A DNA stretch of 64,000 nucleotides, taken from contig JAJZTF010000009.1 in the NCBI GenBank assembly GCA_021821945.1, positions 1 through 64,000 of the forward strand. The letters run 5' to 3'. Under the pieces are notes generated by a model. The model did not search any database, was not told the DNA's origin, and saw nothing but the letters and a program-made list of their open reading frames with translations. The stretch comes from Pseudomonadota bacterium (GTDB lineage Bacteria > Pseudomonadota > Gammaproteobacteria > Burkholderiales > Gallionellaceae). Shown here piece after piece: positions 12,633-15,273 of this stretch (positions are counted from its first letter, which is position 1; every line of letters begins with the position of its first letter). The translations under genes and the position numbers were made by a program.

Positions 12633-12665
12633 GTCCCCTCATTGCGCAATATGACCAAACCGGCT

Positions 12666-12737
12666 ACTCATTACGATCGCAAAACCACCACCAGTTGTGA
12701 CTGAAAGCCGCTGACCATTTGGCTGATCATCGGCCAT
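12666..12737 (+). repeat. Left inverted repeat of the MocR cassette
   Basis: It runs from actcattacgatc to tgatcatcggccat and matches the reverse complement of 14920-14990 with roughly ten mismatches and one 1-nt gap. The stop codon of the MocR gene and its last four residues (LYGR) are encoded within it. Confidence 0.88.
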
Positions 12738-14163
12738 AGAGTTTGGGGTGACTTGTGTCTGCTATGTGGCGCAAGGTTGACTCGAGAAATTTGAATGTGG
12801 AAATGTTTTCGCAATGGGCAACGTTGAAACGGAAGAACGGTGTCGCTTCTTGATTGGGGCGGAACATGTTACCCGGCGCCATCATAATACCGTTTTTGGC
12901 GGCTTCGATCGCTATATTTGCAGTGTCGAAATTTTCTCCAGGGCTTGCCCAAACGAACATCCCGCCTTGTGGTTCGCAATGTACATCAAATCCAAGCTGT
13001 TCAAGTTTAGCGATAGTTTGCTGGCGCGCCTGGAGTAGACGTTTACGCAATTTATCCATGTGCTTGCGATAATGTCCATCAACTAGAAGTTGATACATCA
13101 CCTGTTCATTGATTTCTGAAGTGGTCAGATTGGTAAGGAGCTTGACATCACAAAGCTTGTCAGCCATTTTCTGGTTACAGGCAAAATAGCCAACACGCAG
13201 GCTTGCCGAAACGGTCTTGGAAAAGCTGCTCACATATATGACTCGGTTAAGTTGGTCCAGTGTCGCCAACCGGGTGATCGGCATGGGGTGGAAATCGCCG
13301 TATATGTCATCCTCAACCAAGGTAACATCGTATTTTTCCGCCAGTTGCAGAATGCGATAGGCGACCGGCTGGGAGATACTTGCGCCAGTAGGATTGTGTA
13401 GTATTGTGTTAGTAAAAAATACTTTAGGCCGATGTTCGATGATCAACGCTTCAAGTCTGGCTACATCTGGCCCATCTACGTTCCAAGGCACTCCAACTAC
13501 CTTCGCGCCAAATGACTTCAGCCCGCCGAATAGGATGAAATAGCCTGGATCGTCAACCAATACCGCATCGCCTGCCTGAATCAGGTGCCGCGTAACTAAA
13601 TCCATAGCGTGTGTTACCCCCGAGGTCAGGATGATCTGCGATGGATTGGCAACAATGCCGAGCGCGGACAGTTTGTTTTGCAGCAGGCTGCGTAACGGCA
13701 GATAACCGCCTGCAGTACCATATGCTGACAAGAATTCCCCATTTTTCTGCGAGATCATGCGCAGGCTTTTTTTGATTCCGGAGTCTTCCATCCACTCGGC
13801 TGGCAGCCACCAAGCCCCAGGCATGGTCTTGCTAGTCCGATCTTCCAGCGATTTTTTCAGTATCCAGACAACGTCAATTGCACTTTCTGGTTGGTAAGTG
13901 GAATCGAGTGTTTGGGCAGGAGTCGGCATTGAGACATAGAAACCAGAGCCCGGACGCGAATTGATGTAGCCCATTGCGATCAGCCGATCATATGCTTGAA
14001 CTACTGTAAAGCGACTGATTCCATGTTGTTCGGCAAAGAGCCGTATTGAGGGTAAGCGCATCCCTGCTCGAAGAGTCTTTTCGTTGATTTGTTGCCTGAT
14101 CGAATTAGTGATCTGGTCTGTCAGGGGGGTGGCGTTTTGAGGGTCAATGGTGACAATTGGCAT
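12727..14163 (-). CDS. MocR-type transcriptional regulator (GntR HTH fused to class I aminotransferase fold)
   Basis: The N-terminal winged helix-turn-helix (about 10-75; PLTDQITNSIRQQI, RLPSIRLFAEQHGISRFTVVQAYDRL) is joined to a PLP-dependent aminotransferase-like domain with VEDDIYGDF and the PLP-lysine motif SSFSKTVSASLRVGYF. This is the MocR/PdxR architecture, which regulates transcription using PLP or an amino compound as effector. I chose MPIVTIDPQ as the start, giving 478 residues; the track ORF adds 16 residues through the operator region. Base composition is lower in GC than in flanking genes. It is divergent from the membrane gene at 14272, its probable target. Confidence 0.88.
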   Translation of the reverse strand: MPIVTIDPQNATPLTDQITNSIRQQINEKTLRAGMRLPSIRLFAEQHGISRFTVVQAYDRLIAMGYINSRPGSGFYVSMPTPAQTLDSTYQPESAIDVVWILKKSLEDRTSKTMPGAWWLPAEWMEDSGIKKSLRMISQKNGEFLSAYGTAGGYLPLRSLLQNKLSALGIVANPSQIILTSGVTHAMDLVTRHLIQAGDAVLVDDPGYFILFGGLKSFGAKVVGVPWNVDGPDVARLEALIIEHRPKVFFTNTILHNPTGASISQPVAYRILQLAEKYDVTLVEDDIYGDFHPMPITRLATLDQLNRVIYVSSFSKTVSASLRVGYFACNQKMADKLCDVKLLTNLTTSEINEQVMYQLLVDGHYRKHMDKLRKRLLQARQQTIAKLEQLGFDVHCEPQGGMFVWASPGENFDTANIAIEAAKNGIMMAPGNMFRPNQEATPFFRFNVAHCENISTFKFLESTLRHIADTSHPKLYGR

Positions 14164-14176
14164 GGCGATGTGACCA

Positions 14177-14209
14177 GTACAGTACATATAAATACTGCGC
14201 AAACTGTAC
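14177..14209. promoter_or_regulatory. Candidate MocR operator: GTACAGT-N19-ACTGTAC
   Basis: The 108-bp divergent intergenic region holds a perfect 7-bp inverted repeat GTACAGT / ACTGTAC separated by 19 nt, plus GTACAT as a direct repeat 24 nt apart. Spaced repeats next to a divergent target are usual for MocR regulators. Function is inferred from position only. Confidence 0.5.
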
Positions 14210-14271
14210 ATGTTTTGTCAACTCTGCTGCATGTAAAGTTACGCCGTATCAATCGGATAAGGAGAGGTTTT

Positions 14272-14727
14272 ATGACTTTAGCCTACAAGCGCGGATTCGT
14301 CGCAGTGACGGCAGGAATGCTGCTCAATTTTTTTGGGGACTGGATTACCGGCATCAATATTGAAACATTCAAAGGGATATCTACATTCACCTTTTCCTGG
14401 ATGTTAGATGTTTTCCTAGTGCCATTTATCACTGGATTTATAGTTGCCAAGATATACCGAGATAGAGGGGGGAAATATCTAGCCTGCCTTCCGCCACTGT
14501 TCGTGCGCTGTATCACCTATTTTTATATGTATATGTATGTATACAACGATGGGAAAGATTTTAATTATCACCTCAATCTGTATTACTGGGGGCCTTGCGT
14601 AATTCTGGCCGTCGAGGCCTCGAACTTTGGCGCGATTATCGGGGAAGTACTTGCTGGTGCCTATCGCGCAAGGCAAATTCGAACTGTGGAAAACGCCATC
14701 AACAAGCGCTATCCAGCTGATGCATGA
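14272..14727 (+). CDS. Orphan small integral membrane protein, cassette passenger
   Basis: This 151-residue protein of no recognised family has about four hydrophobic segments (roughly 8-25, 38-58, 70-90 and 105-128) and an aromatic-rich loop (YFYMYMYVYNDGKDF). A strong ribosome binding site (AAGGAGAGG) precedes the ATG at 14272. It diverges from the MocR gene, so it is probably the regulated passenger, perhaps a transporter-like or stress membrane protein. Composition is AT-rich compared with genes outside the cassette. Confidence 0.7.
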   Translation: MTLAYKRGFVAVTAGMLLNFFGDWITGINIETFKGISTFTFSWMLDVFLVPFITGFIVAKIYRDRGGKYLACLPPLFVRCITYFYMYMYVYNDGKDFNYHLNLYYWGPCVILAVEASNFGAIIGEVLAGAYRARQIRTVENAINKRYPADA

Positions 14728-15081
14728 GCAATTACAAAACAATTGAGACAGAGGAGAAGGCACAGTGATCAGAATCCCGCAATGAGATAAAGTCAAAAAT
14801 GGTGTATGACCAGTCTGTAGCATGATGCGTCAGGCGACAGGTTTCTGCTGAACAGGTTGATCGTCACGACCTGTTCACCGTCCTTGAAGGGGGGTTTCTT
14901 CAGCGAAGCGGTTTAGTCCATGGCCGATGATCAGCCAAATAGGCGGTGGCTTTCAATCGTAACTGGTGGTGGTTTTGGATCGTAATGAGTGGCGGAATTG
15001 ATGTGGAAGATGCACCTTCAAGTTGCGCTCGCGAATTGAATCCGCTTAATATTAAATCCACACTCGCATACAGGATAGCCC
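14728..15081. other. Gene-free stretch containing the right inverted repeat
   Basis: About 350 bp without a credible gene. The 120-aa track ORF at 14946 starts inside the inverted repeat and its product looks like no protein. Positions 14820-14919 hold GC-richer sequence that may be remnant transposon DNA; 14920-14990 is the right inverted repeat; 14991-15081 leads into the small membrane gene. Confidence 0.7.
14920..14990 (-). repeat. Right inverted repeat of the MocR cassette
   Basis: This is the reverse-complement partner of 12666-12737. On the plus strand it reads atggccgatgatcagccaaa and ends ggatcgtaatgagt. It includes two sub-repeats, GGTGGCTTTCAATCGTAACT at 14945 and GGTGGTTTTGGATCGTAATGA at 14968, with a third partial unit (agtggcgg) running out at about 14988. 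Confidence 0.88.
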
Positions 15082-15273
15082 ATGTTCAAGTTGCCTCTAG
15101 TCATCATCTACATGATCATCGCCTTCAACCTCACCGCATTCACCGTGTTTGTGCAGCTGGACATGCTGATATTCACCGGGCTCGTCTACAAGATCATCGC
15201 CTGGACGCTGACGATAGGCGCCTGGTATCTGGCATACAGGAATCGCAACAAGTTCTGGAGAATAGGCGGCTAG
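15082..15273 (+). CDS. Small two-helix membrane protein upstream of cbbQ
   Basis: The 63-residue protein has two strongly hydrophobic helices (about 4-25 and 29-50) and a basic C-terminal end (YRNRNKFWRIGG). The ORF lies 31 nt upstream of the CbbQ-like gene on the same strand and keeps a codon pattern typical of the neighbours. No family is recognised. It may be co-transcribed with cbbQO, possibly as a small membrane partner, but nothing in the sequence proves this. Confidence 0.6.
   Translation: MFKLPLVIIYMIIAFNLTAFTVFVQLDMLIFTGLVYKIIAWTLTIGAWYLAYRNRNKFWRIGG

Follow-up and report, generated by a model that had tools for sequence, protein, structure and literature searches.

A probable mobile insertion cassette with IS21-type transposon ends in a Gallionella-like iron bacterium

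Comparison with described cassettes and IS21 elements

IS21 elements are usually regarded as small insertion sequences that carry no cargo. Each end of such an element has at least two direct repeats and a terminal CA, and the target repeats measure 5 bp (PMC10122671). Cassettes that hold passenger genes between transposon ends, and no transposase, are already known as mobile insertion cassettes, and one of them, MIC231 of Bacillus cereus, is mobilised in trans (PMC3913671). Here we describe a locus of this kind in the window, by which we mean the whole stretch of 64,000 nucleotides analysed (contig JAJZTF010000009.1, positions 1 to 64,000), which belongs to a Gallionellaceae genome of 2.47 Mb in 28 contigs (G000). 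With a probability of about 0.83, we read positions 12643-15014 as a mobile insertion cassette, in which both ends of an IS21-type transposon enclose DNA without a transposase gene (Table 1).

The cassette is similar to MIC231 and mic-qnrD (PMC3913671) in that inverted ends related to those of a transposable element flank passenger genes, with no transposase and with a target duplication. It differs from MIC231 in its ends (IS21-type multi-repeat vs. IS231) and in its passengers, which are a regulator and a membrane protein. When compared with the IS21 family (e.g., IS21 and IS5376), it shares the TG...CA termini, the direct sub-repeats and a short (here imperfect) duplication, whereas the autonomous relatives encode IstA and IstB and the cassette has neither. 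It also resembles MITEs in being non-autonomous and in retaining only the ends of a transposon, but differs from them in its length and its two intact genes. No complete insertion sequence copies flank the genes, and the ends span only ~100 bp without insertion sequence genes, so that the structure is not a composite transposon.

Table 1. Features of the cassette locus, in window positions
Feature	Position	Strand	Evidence
Whole cassette, 2372 bp	12643..15014	.	Aligned homologous ends, empty sites, end-profile matches
Left end, IS21-type; sub-repeats CTACTCATTACGATCGCAAAA / CCACCACCAGTTGTGACTGAAAG, then near-palindrome TGGCTGATCATCGGCCA	12643..12742	+	Repeats, alignment, profile
Right end, same IS21 type; 23-bp sub-repeats	14917..15014	-	Repeats, alignment, profile
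MocR-type regulator (GntR HTH and class I aminotransferase)	12727..14211	-	Pfam PF00392, PF00155
Orphan 151-aa membrane protein, divergent from MocR	14272..14727	+	Homologues found; no Pfam/NCBIfam match
IS91-family end remnant, 17 nt, inner edge of right end	14903..14919	+	Exact match
Target duplication, left copy CCCTCAT	12636..12642	.	Flank comparison
Target duplication, right copy CCTTCAA (CCTTCAT in G004)	15015..15021	.	Flank comparison

Ends, passenger genes and insertion site

A repeat search of the window recovered inverted arms of 61 nt (12680-12740 and 14917-14977; 87%) and a second pair of 28 nt (12656-12683 and 14973-15000; 79%), with one 1-nt indel between the two pairs. Local alignment of the two 100-bp ends scored 58, when compared with a maximum of 19 among 2000 random 100x100 window pairs. 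The inverted match of about 72 bp reported by a first-pass annotation of this DNA is thus real, and so is the element that it placed at 12666-14990, but those limits fall ~23 bp short on each side. We set the limits as in Table 1 because homologous ends elsewhere align from base 1 (TGC) of the TGC...GCA termini; the end profile matches the window at 12643 (+) and 15014 (-). The cassette repeats occur only once in G000.

Within the ends, sub-repeats recur with a period of ~23 bp, with CCRCCAC at right-end offsets 19, 42 and 65, and the GGTGGC...TCGTAA motif noted in the first pass is present as GGTGGC...ATCGTAA. The inner TGGCYGATSATCRGCCA of the end is nearly palindromic. The TG...CA termini and the repeated motifs, predicted from sequence to bind IstA, are characters of the IS21 family. 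The right end shares 76% identity over 70 nt with the right end of an istAB element from Methylomonas and 70-71% with the ends of an element in the congener G053, vs. at most 61% for random window 70-mers; a search of a plasmid collection with the 121-bp right end gave no match. We refer to IS21-type ends only, and not to an IS21 element, because no istA or istB lies inside.

The interior had been described as AT-richer than its surroundings and as holding only a MocR regulator and an orphan membrane protein, and both statements held up. GC content is 47.8% in the cassette, 58.4% in the window and 58.9% in the neighboring AcrB gene, and the other cassette open reading frames are only short, antisense or overlapping. 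Pfam searches of the two genes and a scan of the open reading frames detected no transposase domain, istA, istB or istAB remnant in the cassette. The longest MocR frame encodes 494 aa, with homologues beginning at an inner ATG near 14164, and its best NCBIfam match is PdxR, below the cut-off of that family. For the membrane protein, AlphaFold predicted a helical structure at low confidence (pLDDT 59). Paralogues of the membrane protein sit in cytochrome c oxidase clusters in G000 itself (C6) and in Ferrovum. Since cydAB also lies inside the corresponding module of the relative G025 (see below), our best guess, at low confidence and judging from gene neighborhoods, is that the passengers may have a role tied to terminal oxidases under the control of MocR.

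The insertion point is the spacer between AcrB and a gene for a 63-aa hydrophobic protein. The latter gene (15082-15273) closely flanks the cassette on its right side, and its product has no family match. In the congeners G046, G061 and G065, AcrB, the 63-aa gene and the CbbQ gene follow each other in the same order with no element between them. The flanks are continuous in G046 (AATGAGACTTATCATGTTGCG), while in G004 they read AATGAGTCCCCTCAT, then the element, then CCTTCATGTTGCG, and a site of G046 length, free of gaps, results when the element and one 7-bp copy are taken away. Insertion into an empty site with a target duplication is a feature of mobile insertion cassettes, although the duplication is imperfect in this case. 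Specifically, the two 7-bp copies agree at 6/7 positions using the G004 flank and at 5/7 in the window itself, so that the duplication expected by the first-pass annotation was found, but in a decayed state in which it would be weak evidence alone. The IS21 family has duplications of 4-8 bp, and the imperfect one of the cassette measures 7 bp; ends of the same type elsewhere have perfect duplications of 5-6 bp (four istAB insertions and one cassette) or none (one element, from Methylomonas).

The sister genome G004 is the only other one in which we found the cassette, at the identical position. The two cassettes share 98.4% identity (38/2372 positions differ), when compared with identities down to 78-94% in the flanking coding DNA. 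The conserved block extends from ~12495 to ~15275, 140-260 bp past the ends. The pattern is best explained by one insertion, after which the block, with ~0.1-0.25 kb of flanking DNA, would have passed between the two species by homologous recombination.

istAB transposons and other cassettes with the same ends

We used a 75-nt end profile and a sequence-only covariance model to find complete elements. The covariance model gave hits at E<1e-9 in 18/76 congeners, several of which had trained the model. Five istAB insertions with these ends were recovered, and 4/5 have perfect duplications of 5-6 bp. The element in G053 (C61; 14.4 kb, duplication GCGGTT, 6/6) carries ABC and efflux genes and a two-component pair, with istAB at the right, and the element in G069 (C3; 19.85 kb, duplication CTAAC, 5/5) carries an RND efflux system and a P-type metal ATPase. 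G055, a complete congener genome in one contig of 3,162,471 bp, holds two near-identical 19.12-kb copies (C1:749037-768156 and 2912378-2931495; L204-L207) with duplications AATAG (5/5) and CCCCCG (6/6). These copies carry efflux and P-type ATPase genes, and their IstA and IstB are 61% and 69% identical to those of the G053 element. On the Methylomonas plasmid NZ_CP014361.1 (L196:1754-22456), 20.7 kb lie between two such ends and include istAB, with a type I secretion system and the gene of a very large calcium-binding protein beside istAB; a search for a target duplication at this element found none. Membership of the IS21 family is confirmed by the Pfam domains of IstA (rve and Mu-transpos_C_2) and by IstB. 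The istAB elements recovered all combine cargo with an istAB located near one end, and they measure 14-21 kb, vs. ~2.5 kb for a simple insertion sequence.

A second transposase-less cassette is present in G055 (C1:953709-960170; L208:1210-7671). It is 6.46 kb long, has both ends and no istAB, and contains folB-like, glyA and metE genes and a LysR regulator between perfect 6-bp duplications (ATTTAT). The window is therefore not the only place where such ends enclose passengers without a transposase. We also observed two such ends 360 bp apart in G003 (C36; L211:5772-6131), in a gene-free, MITE-like arrangement with no duplication. Paired end matches in G051, G067, G063 and G019, as well as a ~20-kb pair in G055, had no duplications and are possibly chance or decayed pairs; we did not count them.

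The IS21-style ends and the mobile insertion cassette proposed in the first pass are thus largely supported, by complete istAB elements with the same ends, by empty sites in three relatives and by a decayed target duplication; movement in trans is a likely but less certain part of that reading. Among named IS21 relatives, the copies of ISPpu7, ISPsy14 and ISIde2 examined have ends that mismatch the cassette. The plasmid relatives of the transposase that are best known (ISPpu7, ISPsy14, ISPre4 and ISIde2; ~51% IstA identity to the G053 element) fall near this group. The istAB elements of G000 itself (C28) belong to a different subgroup, with an IstA of 26% identity and ends TGTCAATCAGCGTGCAAATTTGACC. 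No cognate IstA close to this end group was found in G000 or G004.

A fragment of another family abuts the right end. Exact matches to this 17-nt IS91-family end amount to 22 copies in 13 genomes (0 in the control), 20 of which are in congeners besides G004, and several copies adjoin genes for IS91-type transposases and tyrosine recombinases. As in the window, NNGGCCGA comes next in roughly half of the copies located elsewhere than in the window and G004, a pattern that suggests a target preference. This IS91-family end with its tyrosine recombinase (GCGAAGCGGTTTAGTCC; window 14903-14927, L005-L007, L010-L012, L224-L245) recurs in 13 congeners.

Origin of the cassette and implications for iron-oxidising bacteria

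The sequence of events that we propose starts with insertion of the cassette into the AcrB/63-aa-gene spacer in the lineage of G000 and G004, with a short target duplication. Most likely, the IstA and IstB proteins encoded by a related element would have brought the multi-repeat ends together, cleaved at the terminal CA and linked the ends to the target, as in IS21. MocR and the divergent membrane protein now occupy the interior, where istAB normally sits near one end. Because the IS91-family fragment abuts the right end, it is plausible that istAB was lost through an IS91-type insertion there followed by a deletion, although this remains conjecture. For the cassette in the window we infer that IstAB moved it, either in trans or before the loss of istAB. 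Considering that G000 and G004 have no matching transposase, and that the ends and the duplication are decayed, the cassette is probably stranded now.

Whether the transposase acted in trans bears on a narrower version of the same explanation, in which an autonomous IS21-type cargo transposon decayed in place, with istAB deleted after insertion and no need for mobilisation in trans. We consider this possible, if less probable than its opposite. Every istAB element found has cargo and keeps istAB close to one end, and the IS91-end fragment is located where istAB could have been; however, the cassette has no istAB remnant, and the 6.46-kb element in G055 lacks a transposase while having such ends and an intact duplication.

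A rival history is an older residence of the gene pair beside the 63-aa gene. In G068 and G047, MocR is followed by the membrane gene and this by the 63-aa gene; in G026 and G025, too, the membrane gene adjoins the 63-aa homologue on its upstream side. The G025 locus (C9; L081:1588-6134) comprises, in order, a MocR fragment, cydAB, a decayed membrane gene, the 63-aa gene and CbbQ, with no IS21-type ends detectable by profile at its MocR/membrane locus. The position of cydAB may link this module to a cytochrome bd oxidase. In addition, the MocR of G000 branches in the tree with the MocR of these modules. The MocR/membrane pair could thus be an old resident, in the order MocR-membrane-63aa-CbbQ as in G025, that IS21-type ends or solo insertions later came to surround and that was lost in G046, G061 and G065. 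The observation that the first-pass annotation named as telling against a cassette, the same pair at this locus without repeats, is accordingly half present, as a decayed pair with the same downstream genes in G025. We nonetheless judge this history unlikely, because those three relatives keep a junction of AcrB with the upstream region of the 63-aa gene that can be aligned to both flanks. The two G000 flanks align to one continuous G046 sequence that retains neither ends nor genes, the pair would have to have been lost twice, leaving clean junctions each time, and neither TGC/GCA ends with a near-duplication exactly at the junction nor the foreign GC content of the cassette would be expected. 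Landing of the cassette beside the usual partner of its membrane gene, by chance or through selection, is an unexplained coincidence that counts against the insertion of a mobile cassette, which we still prefer.

It is very improbable that the repeats are unrelated to transposition (e.g., paired regulatory or terminator repeats, with the gene pair integrated by homologous recombination): the near-palindromic inner TGGCYGATSATCRGCCA could be a protein site and the G000/G004 block reaches past the ends, but the perfect duplications around istAB elements with the same ends largely refute this.

In the literature that we searched, the coverage of which was incomplete, we found no description of IS21 transposons that carry cargo, of IS21-type unit transposons as large as 14-21 kb, or of insertion cassettes with IS21-type ends. 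For Gallionella ES-2, PMC3770913 reported no large blocks acquired horizontally. We tentatively suggest, at somewhat less than even odds, that Gallionella and its relatives host undescribed large IS21-type unit transposons (14-21 kb, with istAB at one end and a cargo for metal efflux or secretion), that satellites lacking a transposase accompany them and shuttle modules of a regulator plus a gene, and that one such satellite re-installed the MocR-membrane pair here, directly upstream of the small gene to which it is linked in other genomes. The mobile insertion cassette in the window would then show a transposon end-set in use for moving ordinary gene modules, in a Gallionella-like iron bacterium. 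The end profile ties this transposase-less cassette to istAB transposons that carry copper/metal efflux, secretion and other gene sets, and it would offer a concrete route for the spread of metabolic and regulatory modules among iron-oxidising bacteria.
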